From Candidatus Pararuminococcus gallinarum (GTDB taxonomy: Bacteria > Bacillota > Clostridia > Oscillospirales > Ruminococcaceae): a stretch of 64,000 nt of DNA. Shown here piece by piece: positions 33,770-40,878 of the stretch. The position numbers and the translations under genes are program-made. Within the stretch, counting starts at the first letter, position 1, and every line of letters starts with the position of its first letter. The notes beneath the pieces are model-generated. The model worked only from the letters and a program-made list of their open reading frames with translations, searched no databases and was not told the origin of the DNA. Location: NCBI GenBank assembly GCA_904419775.1, contig CAJFSX010000001.1:62001-126000 (forward strand), written 5' to 3'.

Positions 33770-34321
33770 TTACTCTAGGCTTTCAATGACATCCAGCATC
33801 TCCCAGCCATCCACCACCTCATAGCAGGACACATTGTCCCGATTATAAAAGGAGGGGAAGTATTTGATCAGGTAAACCTTTTCCTTATAGGCCACCAGTT
33901 CCAGCCGGCTCCACACCTGGGGATTATCCAGCAGGGGAGAGGAGGTATGAGAGACCGCTTCTCCCAACTCCATCACCCGGTCCCCGGCCCGGAGGAGGCT
34001 GTTGTAGCCCCACAGCCCTACCCCGGTCAAGGCGGCGTCTGGAAGTTCCTCCTGAAGGAGGGAGCCTTCCTCCCACTCTACATCTTCCGGAGGGATCTGA
34101 CCCAGCACATCCGAAAAGGCCAGGGATCCGCCTGGGGGCGCTACATATTGGTTGATCTCATCCGACGTCAGACTGGGAAGCAAAGAAAAAACCGCGATGA
34201 CCGTCCCAAGGGCCGCCACAATCAAACCCAAAAGGGAGAAAAGGATGATCTTTCCCCAGGGCCGCTTTTTCGGCGGCTTGCTCTTTCCAAAGTCAATGAC
34301 CGTTACGTTATGCCGCTGCAT
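33770..34321 (-). CDS. single-pass membrane protein of unknown function
   Basis: Protein of 183 residues. A basic cytoplasmic N-terminus of about 24 residues (with GKSKPPKKRPWGK) is followed by one membrane helix at about residues 25-48 and an extracellular acidic domain. I recognise no family. The ATG at 34321 has GGCGGGGAT upstream; an in-frame ATG at 34354 is possible but has a weaker site. It has its own extended -10 promoter, and the terminator of the sortase gene lies upstream, so it is probably monocistronic. Confidence 0.7.
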   Translation of the reverse strand: MQRHNVTVIDFGKSKPPKKRPWGKIILFSLLGLIVAALGTVIAVFSLLPSLTSDEINQYVAPPGGSLAFSDVLGQIPPEDVEWEEGSLLQEELPDAALTGVGLWGYNSLLRAGDRVMELGEAVSHTSSPLLDNPQVWSRLELVAYKEKVYLIKYFPSFYNRDNVSCYEVVDGWEMLDVIESLE

Positions 34322-34391
34322 TTCATCCCCGCCTTTTACGGTGAATTGGGGCATCTTCTGCGCCGAGACGCCCTTTTCTGGATTCCTTGTT

Positions 34392-34440: not shown

Positions 34441-34472
34441 GGAAGCCCCGCTTATAAAAGCGGGGCTTCCTT
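34441..34472 (-). terminator. hairpin terminator after the sortase gene
   Basis: GGAAGCCCCGCTT and AAGCGGGGCTTCC form a strong stem directly after the stop codon. The minus-strand tail (TTCATCTTT) is only moderately T-rich. Confidence 0.65.
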
Positions 34473-37000
34473 TACCCAATGGTGGGCGGTTCCTCTGATT
34501 CAGGCGGGGACTCCGTCTCCTCTGGCGAAGTATCTGGGGGAGGCGTCTGAGGCGGCGTGGTTGTCGTAGTAGTAGTTTCAGGAGGTGTCGTTGTTGTCGT
34601 AGTAGTTGTTGTGGTGGTAGTTTCAGGAGGTGTTGTTGTCGTCGTAGTAGTTGTTGTGGTAGTAGTTTGAGGAGGATTGGTCTGCTCCGGCGGGCGGGTG
34701 GTCTGAGGCAGGGTGGTGGTGGGAGGCGCCTCGGTGGTGCCGATGACCATATTCACAGCGCCCTCTGGCTTGGTGCCGCCGTAGAGCTCATACCACACAT
34801 CGGGGTAGAGAGGCTGGGGATTGACTGTCGCCTGGGAGACATCCACCGTGGGATCCTCTCCCTCCCGGACCCGGCGGGCTACTACCACAAAACGGGCCTC
34901 ATTAAACTCGTAGGTACAGGTGGAAAGGGTCAGGAGGGTATCGCTGGTGTTCACATCCACACCGGTGTTGATAATGGTGCGCAGGCTCAGCTGGTTGAGG
35001 AACTGGGCCATATTCTCCTCACTGGTGGCGTTGATAAAGTTGTGGTAATCAAACACTGGTCCGTGCTCCGGCAGGGTGTTGGTGATAAAGATGGAGATGA
35101 TCTTATACTGTCCTTCCCGGTAAACCGAGTCATAGTTGATGACAGGATGCTGCTTATAGTATTCCAGATCCCGGTAGTTGATCAGTTCTCCGAACATCTG
35201 GCCGTCCTTCATGTTGTGGCCGAAGATGATGGTGTTGGTGCTGGGGGCTTTCTGATCCACCCGCTCATCCACAAAGGGAACGCCGTGCTGGTTGCTGGCT
35301 CCGGTAAAGTCCCGGCGCAGGTAGTATTCCCCGTCGTCCTTTTCGGTCTGCATCACAGGGTAGTCCACAATGGTGCCGTCAATGGAAAGCCATCCGGCAA
35401 TATCCGGATTCTGTTCATAGAGAGCCGCGAACTCCGCCAAATAATCATCGGGATAGCCGTCGGGGACCTCACCGGTGCCCAGCAGCTGGCTCAGGTTCTC
35501 ATTGAGCTGTTTATTGTGATAGGATTCATAGAAGTAGCTACCGATATAGATGGCCGACGCCGCGAAGACAATGACCGACAGCAGCAAAATAATCTTACGG
35601 ATTTTATCTCTCATGGTATCCCCTTTCTGCGGGAGGAAGGTGGCAGCCAGCCGCTTATACCAGGGCTTTTTCACCCCGGGAGCGGAAGAAGCTTTACTGC
35701 CCGGCTCCAGCACCCGGACCTTGCCGGCCAAGGCCGATGCCACAGGGGTACCGGTCTTCTTCAGCTCCTCACCGTCCAGCAGATACTCCTGGCCCAAGGC
35801 CATGGCCGCTGTAGCGGCGGCGCTTTTAATGACAGGCGCGTTTTTCCGATGGTTGGCGGCGCTCGTTTGCTTAACCCAGACGTTTTCCCCATCGGAAACC
35901 GCCACATAGGTCATGCCGGGCAGACTTTCCCCGCCGCCGCCTTCAGCACAGACGGCAGCCAGTCCCAGATGGGCTTCGCCCGCTTCCCTGGCGCCAATGG
36001 CCATGGCCGCGGCGGCCTGGGGACTGTATTCGCCGTATTTTTTCAGTATCTTCTCCGGGATGCCCAGCACCTGGTGCCGGGCCCGGTCGGAATTGGCCAT
36101 AATGCCAAAACCATAGACGGCAGCGGCCCCTGCCACTCCAGAAAGGCGGCGTTTGAGCATGCCGCCGGTACCCAGCTCAGCGGTGGCCACCGTCATCTGC
36201 TCTTTATGCAGGCGTCTGACAAAGGCTTCCTCCATGGAAGCCGCGTCGATGCCGCAGACATAAGGCTCCAATCTGGCAACGATGGATTTTACCACCGGCA
36301 CCGCCATGGATTGGGCTTCCCCCATGGTGGAGGCCGCGGCAGTCACCCGGATAAAGGGCTGCCCCTCTTTTTCATAGACGCAGACTGCTGGGTTCTGGCG
36401 GGCGGCCAGTTCCCCCAATTGTTTGGCCGCGCCTTCCCCATCCAGGTTCATCAGGGCGATGGTCCTGGATGCCACCTGGGCCTGGCTTCTTCTGGCCAGG
36501 AAGGGGAAAACCTCATGGATGAGCATGGGCAGATATTCCCCCGGCGTACCGGGCAGCATAATGACGCTTTGATGGCCTTTGACCATGGCAAAACCCGGCG
36601 TCATCCCAATAGTATTGGGGAACACCGTAGCTCCTCTGGGAATCATAGCCAGCTTCTTATAGGATGGGGGCATCATAGCGCCCCGCTGTTCGCATTTGTC
36701 CTCCAGGATCCGCAGTTGGGTGGAATCCAGCTCCAGCTGCATTCCCAGCCCCCGGCAGACAATCTCCCGGGCAAAGTCATCCTCACCCGGTCCGATTTTC
36801 CCGGTGATGATGATGACGTCGCTTTTGGGCAGGGCCGTTGTGAGCAGCGATACCAGCTTCTGCTGGCTCCCCGCCGCGCTGGCCTGTCCCTGCACATGGA
36901 TCCCGATGGTTTCCAGCTCCTTGAGCAGGTTTTTCGCCTGGCTTCCCGCCAGGCTGCCCAGCAGCTGTTCCTCACCGGCACCGATGAGATATGCGGTCAT
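34472..37000 (-). CDS. CinA-like/class B sortase fusion membrane protein
   Basis: A 842-residue protein of unusual build. Residues 1-430 follow the whole CinA plan: molybdopterin-binding-like domain (1-170, with GKIGPGEDD at 68-75 in place of GGLGPTxDD), a central module (about 178-255) and a CinA-C domain (255-380). In the latter the expected ESCTGG is AELGTGG (274-280), so the catalytic Ser is missing. Residues about 468-490 form one membrane helix. Residues about 510-715 are a class B sortase with His595 (FGHNM), Cys695 (TLSTC) and Arg703. A Thr/Pro-rich tail closes the protein. Topology would be CinA part inside, sortase outside. Met463 has AAAGGGGA just upstream, so a free sortase may also be made. 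The ATG at 37000 or a TTG three bases earlier follows AAGGAGG. It is downstream of thiI. Confidence 0.8.
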   Translation of the reverse strand: MTAYLIGAGEEQLLGSLAGSQAKNLLKELETIGIHVQGQASAAGSQQKLVSLLTTALPKSDVIIITGKIGPGEDDFAREIVCRGLGMQLELDSTQLRILEDKCEQRGAMMPPSYKKLAMIPRGATVFPNTIGMTPGFAMVKGHQSVIMLPGTPGEYLPMLIHEVFPFLARRSQAQVASRTIALMNLDGEGAAKQLGELAARQNPAVCVYEKEGQPFIRVTAAASTMGEAQSMAVPVVKSIVARLEPYVCGIDAASMEEAFVRRLHKEQMTVATAELGTGGMLKRRLSGVAGAAAVYGFGIMANSDRARHQVLGIPEKILKKYGEYSPQAAAAMAIGAREAGEAHLGLAAVCAEGGGGESLPGMTYVAVSDGENVWVKQTSAANHRKNAPVIKSAAATAAMALGQEYLLDGEELKKTGTPVASALAGKVRVLEPGSKASSAPGVKKPWYKRLAATFLPQKGDTMRDKIRKIILLLSVIVFAASAIYIGSYFYESYHNKQLNENLSQLLGTGEVPDGYPDDYLAEFAALYEQNPDIAGWLSIDGTIVDYPVMQTEKDDGEYYLRRDFTGASNQHGVPFVDERVDQKAPSTNTIIFGHNMKDGQMFGELINYRDLEYYKQHPVINYDSVYREGQYKIISIFITNTLPEHGPVFDYHNFINATSEENMAQFLNQLSLRTIINTGVDVNTSDTLLTLSTCTYEFNEARFVVVARRVREGEDPTVDVSQATVNPQPLYPDVWYELYGGTKPEGAVNMVIGTTEAPPTTTLPQTTRPPEQTNPPQTTTTTTTTTTTTPPETTTTTTTTTTTTPPETTTTTTTPPQTPPPDTSPEETESPPESEEPPTIG
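34558..34680 (-). repeat. 45-bp tandem repeat coding for Thr-rich tail
   Basis: The anchor TTTCAGGAGGTGT occurs at 34576 and 34621 and in variant form (TTTGAGGAGG) at 34666, an exact 45-base period. Each unit encodes PPE or PPQ followed by up to twelve Thr. Thr codons vary (ACA, ACC, ACG, ACT in mixed order), and flanking partial units extend the run. It lies in the extracellular tail of the sortase. Confidence 0.85.
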
Positions 37001-37044
37001 CAACTTCCGCCTCCTTCGATATACGTAATGTTATATAAATGCAA

Positions 37045-38217
37045 TTATATGCTAATTGTAATCTGTTCCATCCCCGCTACCGCCTCGTCAATGAGAGCCT
37101 GTTCCTCCAGCGCCTCTTCTTCGTGGAGGATGGAGGCCAGCTTGGGACGGGTACGGGGATGCTTGGGGGTAAATACAGTACAGCAATCCTCATAGGGAAG
37201 GATGGAGGTCTCAAAGGTGTCGATCTTTCTGGCGATGGTGACGATCTCATCCTTATCCATGCCGATGAGGGGGCGCAGCACCGGCAGCTGGGTAGCCACA
37301 TCGGTGCAGGCAATGGCCGGGATGGTCTGACTTGCTACCTGGCCTACGCTTTCCCCGGTGATGAGGGCCTCGCAGCCGTAGCGTTCCGCCGCGATCTGCG
37401 CGATCTTCATCATATACCGGCGCATAATGACGGTAAAGTATTCCTCGGCGCATTTGTCCCGGATTTCCTCTTGAATATGGGTAAAGGGGACCACCAGGGT
37501 GGTGATTCTCCCCGAGTAAGCACACATCTTTTTCACCAGGTCCAGCACCTTGTGCCGGGCCATATCGCTGGTGTAGGGAGGGCTGACAAAGTGGATGGCC
37601 GTCAGCTCCAGCCCCCGGCGGGCCATCATATAGCCGGCCACAGGGGAGTCGATGCCGCCGGAGATCAGCAGCATTCCTTTTCCCGCCGATCCAATGGGCA
37701 TGCCGCCGGCGCCGGGCAGCTGTTCCCCCCGGACATAAGCCGCATAGTCCCGGACCTCCACCGTCACCGTCAGGTCGGGATGGTGGACATCCACCCGGAG
37801 ATGGGGGAACTTTTCCAGCAGATAGCCTCCCAGTTCCGCGCAGATTTCCGGCGACTTCATGGGAAAGCTCTTATCAGAGCGCTTGGCTTCCACCTTAAAG
37901 GTTTCGATTTCCTCCAGCTGGTCGGCCAGATACTCCGCCGCCGTCTCCTGGATTTTGGAAAAATCCTTTTCCACCACCGCGGCCCGGGCAATCCCCGCAA
38001 AGCCGAATACCTTGGAGAGGCGGTCGAAAGCGCCGTCGATATCGGCGTCGGGGCTCACCGGCTCGCAGTACATGGTGGACTGGGATTTGTAGATTTTAAA
38101 CTCTCCCAAATCCCGGACCCTGCGGCGGCAGGTCTTCATGAGCATGGATTCAAATACCGATTTATTCAGCCCTTTCAGGGCAATCTCCCCGTATTTGAGG
38201 AGGATGATTTCATTCAT
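37045..38217 (-). CDS. thiI: tRNA 4-thiouridine synthetase / thiamine sulfur transferase ThiI
   Basis: ATP-dependent enzyme that thiolates U8 of tRNA and can supply sulfur for the thiamine thiazole. It has 390 residues: N-terminal ferredoxin-like and THUMP domains (to about 165), then the PP-loop ATPase with GMLLISGGIDSPVAGYMM. There is no C-terminal rhodanese domain, as in most Firmicutes. Its ATG overlaps the stop codon of the cysteine desulfurase gene by four bases, so the sulfur donor and its acceptor are translationally coupled. Confidence 0.94.
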   Translation of the reverse strand: MNEIILLKYGEIALKGLNKSVFESMLMKTCRRRVRDLGEFKIYKSQSTMYCEPVSPDADIDGAFDRLSKVFGFAGIARAAVVEKDFSKIQETAAEYLADQLEEIETFKVEAKRSDKSFPMKSPEICAELGGYLLEKFPHLRVDVHHPDLTVTVEVRDYAAYVRGEQLPGAGGMPIGSAGKGMLLISGGIDSPVAGYMMARRGLELTAIHFVSPPYTSDMARHKVLDLVKKMCAYSGRITTLVVPFTHIQEEIRDKCAEEYFTVIMRRYMMKIAQIAAERYGCEALITGESVGQVASQTIPAIACTDVATQLPVLRPLIGMDKDEIVTIARKIDTFETSILPYEDCCTVFTPKHPRTRPKLASILHEEEALEEQALIDEAVAGMEQITISI

Positions 38218-39368
38218 ATGTGTACAGTTCCTTTCTTTCCCTGCCGGAAACGGGGAATGAGGGAGGTCAACGTTTCCACCAGCATCTCCACCTCTTCCAT
38301 GGTGCTTTCATAGGTGAAGCTGATCCGCAGGGCGCTGTCTGCCCGGCTCCGTTCCATCCCCATGGCGGAGAGGACATGGCTGGGCTCCCCCTTGGCACAG
38401 GCCGAGCCGGAGGATACATAGATGCCCTGCTCCTCCAGGGCATGGAGCATGATCTCAGACCGAATGCCCAAAACCGATAGGTTGAGGATATAGGGCGAGG
38501 CGTCTGCCGGGGAGTTGAGCACCACCCCATCCAGGGCGGCAAGCCGCTCCCGCAGGACCCGGTTGAGCTCCGCCACCTTCTCCTGGGAGGGGAGCATCTT
38601 TTGGGCCGATTCCTGAGCCGCCGCCGCGAAGGCGGCGATCATGGGCACCCCTTCGGTGCCGGGGCGCAGCTTCTTCTCCTGCGCGCCGCCGTAGAGGAGG
38701 GGCTGGATCCGTACCCCTTTTTTCACATAAAGGGCGCCCACCCCTTTGGGCCCGTGGATCTTGTGGGCGCTCACCGACATAAGGTCCACCCCCAAGCGGG
38801 AAACTTTGAAGGGGATCTTGCAAAACGCCTGGACCCCATCGCAGTGAAAGAGCACCTCTTTATTCTTCCGGCGGATCAGCCGTCCAATTTTGGGAATGTC
38901 CAACACGGTGCCCAGTTCGTTGTTCACCAGCATAGTGCTGACCAGGATGGTGTTTTCATCCACGGCCTGGGCAATTTTTTCCGCCGGCAGGGTGCCGTCC
39001 GGCTCCGGCGGGACAAAGACCACCTCAAAGCCCTCTGTTTCCAGCTTCCCGGCCGCGGCGAGCACCGAGGAATGCTCAAAGGCGGTGGTGACAATCCGGT
39101 TGCCCCGCCGCTTTTTGGCCCGGGCGGCGCCGAAAAGGGCCAGGTTATTGCTTTCGGTGGCGCCGGAGGTAAAGGTCACTTCCTCCCGGTCACAGCCCAG
39201 CACGCCGGCAACCGTTTCCCGGCACTGCTGCAAAAGCAAAAATGCGTCGATCCCCCGCCGGTGCAGGGAAGAGGGATTGCCCCAAACTTCCTCCATGGCG
39301 TGCTTTGCCGCCACCACCGCTGACGGGGATACCGCCGTTGTCGCCCCATTGTCCAGATAGCATTCCAT
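38214..39368 (-). CDS. cysteine desulfurase (NifS/IscS-like)
   Basis: Pyridoxal-phosphate enzyme that mobilises sulfur from cysteine as a persulfide, 384 residues. The PLP-binding Lys is in SAHKIHGPKGVGALYVKKG. The HSSVLAA and VNNELGT blocks and the active-site Cys loop (YVSSGSACAKGEPSHVL) are present. The ATG at 39368 is chosen since the protein then begins MECYLDNGATT as in the family; the open frame runs on upstream for 66 codons without support. Coupling to thiI suggests tRNA thiolation as its main task. Confidence 0.93.
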   Translation of the reverse strand: MECYLDNGATTAVSPSAVVAAKHAMEEVWGNPSSLHRRGIDAFLLLQQCRETVAGVLGCDREEVTFTSGATESNNLALFGAARAKKRRGNRIVTTAFEHSSVLAAAGKLETEGFEVVFVPPEPDGTLPAEKIAQAVDENTILVSTMLVNNELGTVLDIPKIGRLIRRKNKEVLFHCDGVQAFCKIPFKVSRLGVDLMSVSAHKIHGPKGVGALYVKKGVRIQPLLYGGAQEKKLRPGTEGVPMIAAFAAAAQESAQKMLPSQEKVAELNRVLRERLAALDGVVLNSPADASPYILNLSVLGIRSEIMLHALEEQGIYVSSGSACAKGEPSHVLSAMGMERSRADSALRISFTYESTMEEVEMLVETLTSLIPRFRQGKKGTVHI

Positions 39369-39537
39369 AAAAAAATAATTCCCACCTATCCCGCTTTTTT
39401 TGCCAAAAAAGCGTGTCGTAAACAAAGACATTATACACCAGATGCCCCCCAAGTTCAAACAAACCCGCCTCATTTTACATATTTGTAATAAAAAAGGAAA
39501 ATATAGTGATAAATCCGTGACGGGAAGGATGTCTTTC

Positions 39538-40878
39538 ATGAAAAAACGTACCATGATCCGCATCATCAGCTATCTCACCGCCCTGTTTTTGGTGCTGGGC
39601 ATCAGCGCCTTTCGGGGCAATTACCATACCATACAATATCAGAACGCTCTGGAGAGCAGCTACCGGAAATCCCTGGATGAGCTGACCAGCCTGATGGGCA
39701 ACATTCAGAACACCCTCCTCAAGGGCACTTATGTGGGAACGCCGGCCCAGATCTCCATGATCTCCGCCCAGCTCTGGAAGGACGCGGCCTCCGCCAAATC
39801 CTGTCTTTCCAGCCTGCCGGTGGGGGAGCTTCATCTGGAAAACACCTACCGCTTCCTCTCCCAGGTCGGTGACTTTTCCATGGCCCTTTCCAAGAAGTCC
39901 ATGGAGGGGCAGGATCTCAGCTTAGACGAACGGGAGAGCTTCGAGAGCATGATCGACTACGCCCAGACCCTGGGCAATGACCTTCTCAGCCTAGACGACT
40001 ATATCAACACCAGCGGCACCGCCCTGGGCGAGCTGGCCGACTACTCCGACCAAGAGGATACCGACGACCCCGGCGTCGCCACCCTAGGCTCCGGCTTTGA
40101 GGAGATGGAGGAGGGCTTTACCAGCTATCCCAAACTGATCTATGACGGCCCCTTCTCCGACCATCTCACCGACCGGACTCCGGTGATGACCCAGGGGCAG
40201 AGCACCGTTACCCGGGCCGCCGCCCTGAAAAAAGCGGCCGCAGCGGCCATGGTGGATCCGGAGGCCCTTTCCGACGCGCCGGATGAAAACTCCAACATGC
40301 CCCTCTACTGCTTCTCTGGGGAAAACATCAATGTAGGCGTCACCAAGCAGGGCGGGTATCTCTGCTATATGAGGGTAAGCCGCGACGTAGGCGATCCAGA
40401 AAAGTCGGTGGACAACGCCTTCACCATCGCCCGGGAATATCTGGAGAAGGTGGGGATGGGCTCCATGAAGGACAGCTATTACGAGGTGGCAAACGGCATC
40501 TGTACCATGAATTTCGCCTATGAGCAGGACGGCGTCACCTGTTATCCCGACCTGGTCAAGGTGGGGGTGGCGCTGGACACCGGCAGCGTGGTCTTTTTTG
40601 ACGCCAGAGGGTATCTGATGAACCACCAGGAGCGGGAGTTTTCCGCCCCCATGCTGACAGATACTACGGCAAAGGAAATCCTCAGCCCCTCCCTTACCGT
40701 CCAGTCCCAGAATATGGCCGTCATCCCCACCAGCGGCATGAATGAGGCTTATTGCTATGAATTTCTCTGCGAGGGCAGGGAAGGGCAGAAGGTCCTGGTC
40801 TATATCAACTCCGCCACCGGCGCGGAGGAACAGGTGCTGATCCTCATCGAATCGGATAACGGGGTGCTGACCGTATAA
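39538..40878 (+). CDS. ypeB: germination protein YpeB
   Basis: Spore protein needed to localise and stabilise the cortex-lytic enzyme SleB, 446 residues. One N-terminal membrane helix (about residues 8-25) is followed by a helical domain. The hallmark segment FTSYPKLIYDGPFSDH comes next, then PepSY-like repeats to the C-terminus (with YLEKVGMGSMKDSYYEVANG). GGGAAGGA lies eight bases before the ATG at 39538. The usual sleB partner is not adjacent. I cannot assign a sporulation sigma-factor promoter with confidence, although TATAGT at 39503 is a -10 candidate. Confidence 0.9.
   Translation: MKKRTMIRIISYLTALFLVLGISAFRGNYHTIQYQNALESSYRKSLDELTSLMGNIQNTLLKGTYVGTPAQISMISAQLWKDAASAKSCLSSLPVGELHLENTYRFLSQVGDFSMALSKKSMEGQDLSLDERESFESMIDYAQTLGNDLLSLDDYINTSGTALGELADYSDQEDTDDPGVATLGSGFEEMEEGFTSYPKLIYDGPFSDHLTDRTPVMTQGQSTVTRAAALKKAAAAAMVDPEALSDAPDENSNMPLYCFSGENINVGVTKQGGYLCYMRVSRDVGDPEKSVDNAFTIAREYLEKVGMGSMKDSYYEVANGICTMNFAYEQDGVTCYPDLVKVGVALDTGSVVFFDARGYLMNHQEREFSAPMLTDTTAKEILSPSLTVQSQNMAVIPTSGMNEAYCYEFLCEGREGQKVLVYINSATGAEEQVLILIESDNGVLTV

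Follow-up and report, generated by a model that had tools for sequence, protein, structure and literature searches.

A fusion of a CinA-like domain to a class B sortase recurs in one bacterial order and probably derives from a conserved thiI-linked gene row

The window analysed here, a stretch of 64,000 nucleotides from a gut-type bacterium, encodes on its minus strand a protein that joins a CinA-like region to a class B sortase across one membrane helix. CinA-type folds are normally intracellular; class B sortases are well known, and sortases act outside the cell, where they anchor surface proteins. The new finding is of known domains in a recurrent arrangement with reciprocal decay, undescribed in the literature searched (subscription literature lay outside its scope). 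The history of the gene is probably the collapse of a conserved row, thiI-cinA-srtB-(spoIID), into a fusion. Our best explanation, to which we give slightly better than an even chance, is a fused operon whose CinA fold, no longer catalytic, has been retained to provide a working sortase B with a cytosolic base.

Reading frame, domain layout and predicted structure

The first-pass annotation had described a single uninterrupted frame holding a complete CinA layout, a membrane span and a class B sortase. The frame is indeed open throughout 34472-37003 on the minus strand, with no stop or frameshift near codons 430-463, where a break had been envisaged. The sequence AAGGAGG lies closely upstream of TTG 37003 and ATG 37000. 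Coordinates of the gene, its parts and its immediate surroundings are collected in Table 1. An assembly error or frameshift was rejected as the source of the fusion, because the same architecture recurs in many independently assembled genomes, isolates included.

Table 1. Features of the fusion gene and its surroundings in the window
Feature	Position	Strand	Remarks
Candidate hairpin GGAAGCCCCGC...GCGGGGCTTCC, possible terminator	34441..34470	-	By eye, right after stop; tail not T-rich; absent from terminator scan listing
CinA-like / class B sortase fusion gene	34472..37003	-	842 aa from ATG 37000; TTG 37003 one codon upstream
C-terminal Thr/Pro tail, residues 745-842	34475..34768	-	SpoIID or Ig-like domains at same place in relatives
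Class B sortase domain, residues 520-712	34865..35443	-	Pfam, NCBIfam, fold search
Sortase Arg703	34892..34894	-	Alignment
Sortase Cys695	34916..34918	-	Sequence and alignment
Sortase His595	35216..35218	-	Sequence and alignment
Membrane-spanning core, residues 470-488	35537..35593	-	Inside predicted helix 463-506
Cytosolic juxtamembrane segment with P-x-K-G-D	35615..35662	-	Common to N-termini of unfused thiI-linked sortases
CinA-C (PncC) domain, residues 255-403	35792..36238	-	Pfam
CinA KH domain, residues 178-248	36257..36469	-	Pfam
MoCF (COG1058) domain, residues 1-172	36485..37000	-	Pfam; AlphaFold2; fold match to T. thermophilus CinA
thiI	37045..38217	-	Upstream neighbour, 41 bp gap; conserved anchor of locus in relatives
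Cysteine desulfurase (IscS/NifS type)	38214..39363	-	Overlaps thiI; start approximate
Sigma-70-like site TTGAAC-17-TATAAT	39430..39458	-	Upstream of gene row; consensus match only

Searched against domain databases, the full protein matches the Pfam models MoCF (58.9 bits), CinA_KH (39.4), CinA (82.5) and Sortase (40.4), all above their curated cut-offs, and the NCBIfam class B sortase model TIGR03064 at 164.7 bits, above its cut-off of 153.75. The NCBIfam CinA equivalogs are matched below threshold (NF001813 at 237 bits against 379, TIGR00200 at 188 against 243), as expected because the copy is degenerate. The protein has one hydrophobic span, contained in a predicted helix at residues 463-506. 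An AlphaFold2 run on residues 1-745, made with 35 related proteins, returned a mean pLDDT of 91.7 over those residues, low only at the linker 435-444, and a confident CinA fold at residues 1-420 together with a class B sortase fold. The pTM is 0.57, and the relative placement of the two halves is therefore not predicted. Model residues 1-405 match T. thermophilus CinA (VIA Z 29.7, 28% identity) and residues from about 490 to 713 match sortase B structures at Z 24-27 (B. anthracis SrtB, Z 27), where the Foldseek and VIA comparisons speak to family folds only and do not exclude families outside their lists. The full MoCF-KH-CinA-C layout and fold are present, and the proposed sequence of CinA, membrane span and class B sortase is borne out by Pfam, NCBIfam, hydrophobicity and AlphaFold2, with support as well for the proposed topology of N-terminus inside and C-terminus outside. 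The sortase half has the signal-anchor helix (463-506) and SrtB fold (Z 27) of its class, and keeps the His595, Cys695 and Arg703 that the annotation had named.

The gene row in relatives and the stages of fusion

We surveyed the locus in 40 neighbourhoods and then in 100 further ones. A conserved row runs through the order to which the window's genome belongs: cysteine desulfurase (iscS), thiI, cinA, srtB and often spoIID. In the window, the fusion gene is the final protein-coding member of the iscS-thiI row; no SpoIID gene adjoins it, and three SpoIID matches lie elsewhere in the same genome. Divergent from the row, as in many relatives, is a YpeB germination gene (39400-40878, plus strand). 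After the fusion gene, 33770-34354 (minus strand) encodes a single-span protein of 194 residues with no family match above cut-off.

Relatives display the row at several stages of joining. Separate thiI, cinA, srtB and spoIID genes stand four in a row in L074, and separate thiI, cinA and srtB genes in L053, L054, L105, L118 and L128, the last, from Clostridium methylpentosum, being counted with L074 for the four-gene stage as well. In three genomes (G210, G013 and G272) cinA and srtB are adjacent and in the same frame, with a single stop between them. CinA and sortase are fused with SpoIID as the next gene in L104 and L123, and all three are one protein in L106, L037 and L041. Ig-like domains replace SpoIID in the fusions of L038, L047 and L050; CinA-C alone is joined to the sortase in L043, L057, L063, L070 and L147; and L055 has CinA, membrane segment and SpoIID, the sortase being gone. 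Unfused thiI-linked sortases start with a K-K-P...P-W-K-G-D segment, the same as in the fused linker, showing that fusion kept the whole sortase.

The fusion comprises about 50 proteins in at least five families of the order, with carriers that include the named isolates Acetanaerobacterium elongatum, Merdimmobilis hominis and Negativibacillus massiliensis. The possibility that the two parts are always separate genes in relatives thus fails; the recurrence that the annotation had proposed to look for was found, with the same domain order in many genomes and residue losses that differ from one relative to another. On the CinA tree, the fused or unfused label changes five to six times. No fusion was found among about 245 genomes sampled from other orders: in a phylum sample of 249 genomes, nearly all drawn from other orders, only the window's gene spans both domains. 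The window's sortase clusters with fused Angelakisella sortases and with four CinA-less, Ig-tailed sortases (SH-aLRT 96), a grouping that points to sortases having separated from the fusion as well.

Several loci depart from these patterns. Ruminococcus and related genomes (L168, L172, L173, L175, L177, L181 and L182) have an expanded version of this locus, where four successive srtB genes and a SpoIID gene follow thiI and no CinA lies among them. Copies away from thiI, in L048 (7383-10304), L049 (5563-8433) and L141 (8528-11758), combine SpoIID and an intact sortase with a reduced vestige of a MoCF-like domain; they look like duplicates of the fused gene that have moved. In the genus of G041, the thiI-linked CinA of L254 (genome G684) stops at 430 residues with no sortase, and other species encode a fusion of CinA, dead sortase and SpoIID; the L254 state is a recent split or loss.

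The gene might also yield two products, a free sortase arising from an internal start or by protein cleavage and the fusion itself being of little importance. We regard this as quite improbable. The window does carry AAAGGGGATACCATG ahead of codon 463, but the same bases encode the conserved K-G-D motif. Start codons paired with a matching ribosome site close to the membrane helix were counted in seven of 53 fused genes, against a background of 0.086, with 4 of 6 matches in the window; in the absence of enrichment there, an internal translation start for a free sortase was rejected.

Loss of active sites in either half and maintenance of the CinA fold

Published mutants and structures place S31, Y58, K63, T105 and R145 in the NMN-amidase site of CinA (numbered as in A. 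tumefaciens; PMC5384747). For the ADP-ribose site they give E12, D45, D76 and E156, to which the KH domain adds E187 (numbered as in T. thermophilus; PMC4246079). The first-pass annotation had seen GGLGPTxDD changed to GKIGPGEDD and ESCTGG to AELGTGG, and had judged CinA chemistry to be probably lost. Both changes are confirmed in the sequence, and the loss is supported and is wider than first seen. By alignment, all five amidase-site residues checked are replaced (S31L, Y58N, K63R, T105V, R145K), leaving neither the Ser/Lys dyad nor the Tyr, Thr and Arg by which a CinA amidase is recognised. Two of five are lost at the ADP-ribose site, where E12, D76 and E156 are kept; with Gly at D45 and E187, the window's protein lacks the residue set of a COG1058 ADP-ribose pyrophosphatase. 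All ten residues are present in every aligned full-length CinA that is standalone or an unfused neighbour.

Besides the fused copy, the window's genome encodes a standalone CinA (G000:C2, locus L002) in which all ten residues are present. Standalone copies group with CinAs of other families, apart from the thiI-linked line, and their separate clade (SH-aLRT 98) led us to reject the idea that the standalone CinA is a recent copy of the fused one. The branches of decayed CinA halves are long, and how these halves are placed relative to one another is therefore uncertain.

Decay may strike either half. All sites are kept in the fusions L035, L036, L045, L046, L103, L104, L112 and L117. Many fusions, the window's included, combine a degenerate CinA with an intact sortase. 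The reverse holds for L058 and L060-L062, where CinA is kept (with one ADP-ribose-site change in L061) and the sortase His and Cys are absent; L059 is similar, with a shortened N-terminus. Both halves have lost their chemistry in L039, L044 and L107, of which L039 and L044 retain SpoIID. Wherever the fused sortase is dead, the genome carries other sortases; in the four genomes that have no sortase but the fused one (G085, G100, G204 and G411), it is intact.

A count of CinA-C domains in 41 genomes ties decay to a second CinA. No other CinA occurs in any of 20 genomes whose fused CinA is intact, and a standalone CinA is present in ten of 12 whose fused CinA is decayed, the window's genome among them (Fisher p 1e-6 for genomes that share ancestry). 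The exceptions, G026 and G032, are genomes 87% and 91% complete. On the thiI tree decay requires about four changes (bootstrap 3-6) and yields only one to four independent pairs; the link is weakened because shared ancestry leaves few independent events.

The CinA half could be a passive relic, functionless and retained as an in-frame leader of the sortase. Its catalytic residues have been lost in many ways, L042 is without CinA-C, and closely related sortases in L040, L131, L134 and L136 have no CinA half. Against these points, decayed CinA halves give dN/dS of 0.06-0.22 (Nei-Gojobori, sets of close relatives), similar to the 0.07-0.15 of intact fused CinA halves, with 0.12-0.40 for the tails. 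The sets are of relatives outside the window's genus and that of G284, and the genus of G041 was left out, its sortase half being too diverged. Because these ratios are low and resemble those of intact halves, they indicate that the decayed halves of relatives are maintained; purifying selection on the window's own CinA half would follow by extension from those relatives. The confident AlphaFold2 prediction of a CinA fold, which answers the call for structure prediction of this half, also counts against a relic, as do the conservation of structural positions across decayed copies and the lack of stops or frameshifts. We therefore consider a relic unlikely.

Among 21 decayed copies, chosen as a thinned set, mean conservation is 0.34 over the ten active-site columns, below the domain average of 0.41, and L29, G136, L149, P150, A331 and A335 are conserved at 0.9-1.0. 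Active-site columns drop and structural positions stay, which argues that the fold is kept rather than the pockets. This bears on the earlier suggestion of a ligand-sensing or assembly domain. The assembly part gains from the conserved structure, the lost pocket residues and the low dN/dS in relatives. For ligand sensing we find no support, because the pocket columns are no longer conserved and are replaced differently in each decayed relative. In a sensor reading, the CinA half would bind a nucleotide and control the sortase by a signal sent across the helix; we rate this a little less likely still than a relic. In its favour, the MoCF and CinA-C folds bind nucleotides, E12, D76 and E156 remain in the window's copy, and E156, alone among the active-site residues, is still fairly frequent in decayed copies (0.71); however, every amidase-site residue checked is gone from the window's copy, the varied replacements form no shared new pocket that we could see, and a single helix offers no obvious route for a signal.

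Proposed function and comparison with known systems

A non-catalytic base for a working sortase, the explanation we prefer, would have arisen as follows. Loss of the stop between two same-frame genes would have joined the neighbouring cytosolic CinA to the N-terminus of a class B sortase, whose cytosolic tail and signal-anchor helix stayed in place. The fused protein probably served at first as the cell's CinA; the presence of a separate CinA would then have freed the catalytic residues of the fused copy to change, and the fold would be retained as the base. CinA enzymes are dimers (PMC4246079, PMC5384747), so pairing would be a natural role, and the CinA half most likely pairs two copies of the sortase. 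Outside the cell the sortase would attach surface proteins to the wall, plausibly with NPxTG/NPSSG-type signals. We infer this order of events, the dimerisation, the sortase activity and the substrates.

At least eight proteins of the window's genome carry ENPSSGD, ENPSTGD, NPITGD or SPQTGD followed by a hydrophobic span and a basic tail, and are plausible putative substrates of the fused sortase; such NPxTG-type substrates could instead belong to other sortases of the genome. A surface-protein family ending in ...DWNWPDGSG...KENPSSGD, a hydrophobic stretch and RKKK, found on ten contigs (G000 C4, C6, C10, C17, C24, C26, C46, C61, C79 and C86), provides possible candidate substrates of sortase B. 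One LPETG protein is encoded on a contig carrying two further sortases. The match to another sortase of this genome (G000:C56:24843-25517) contains a TAA; the gene may be broken, or the matched region may extend beyond its end.

More broadly, and only tentatively, the iscS-thiI-cinA-srtB-spoIID row of this order might act as a single envelope machine, its parts fusing time and again to give a two-sided membrane protein. Within it, a CinA or sortase fold could lose its chemistry and persist as a conserved structural module. If so, a cytosolic nucleotide-enzyme fold would be tied to cell-wall protein anchoring and to peptidoglycan-acting SpoIID domains. The findings point to an unstudied link in gut bacteria that connects the thiI locus with sortase B and with SpoIID-type proteins. 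In the literature searched, which did not extend to subscription literature, we found no account of a CinA-sortase fusion or of a thiI-sortase-SpoIID cluster, and no precedent for a cytosolic enzyme fold and an external sortase in one protein; this arrangement recurs across a bacterial order with its unfused intermediates visible. Since the fusions form a natural series in which either half loses catalysis and the whole protein is kept, the role of a retained dead domain is directly testable.

The fold search also listed GephE, the gephyrin E domain. That domain has the MoCF fold and is a scaffold at membrane receptors, and the likeness, an analogy only, is of a MoCF-type enzyme fold serving as a membrane-protein scaffold; gephyrin differs in being eukaryotic, non-covalent and free of any sortase fusion. 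With class B sortases (TIGR03064; B. anthracis SrtB, 2OQW; C. difficile SrtB, 4UX7) the window's protein shares the signal anchor, the fold (Z 24-27) and the His, Cys and Arg, but it adds a large folded cytosolic N-terminal partner, which the listed sortase relatives lack, and a long C-terminal tail. With two-domain CinA / NMN deamidase (T. thermophilus CinA, 4CT8; NF001813, TIGR00200) it has in common the MoCF-KH-CinA-C order of residues 1-405, and it differs in its fusion to a membrane sortase, its lost amidase residues and its scores below the equivalog cut-offs. Inactive CinA paralogues are known in YfaY and YdeJ of E. coli (PMC3855486), where likewise a non-catalytic copy exists beside an active one in the same cell. 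YfaY and YdeJ, however, are soluble and unfused, whereas the dead copy in the window forms the cytosolic end of a membrane enzyme, and dead copies of this kind are under purifying selection in relatives.
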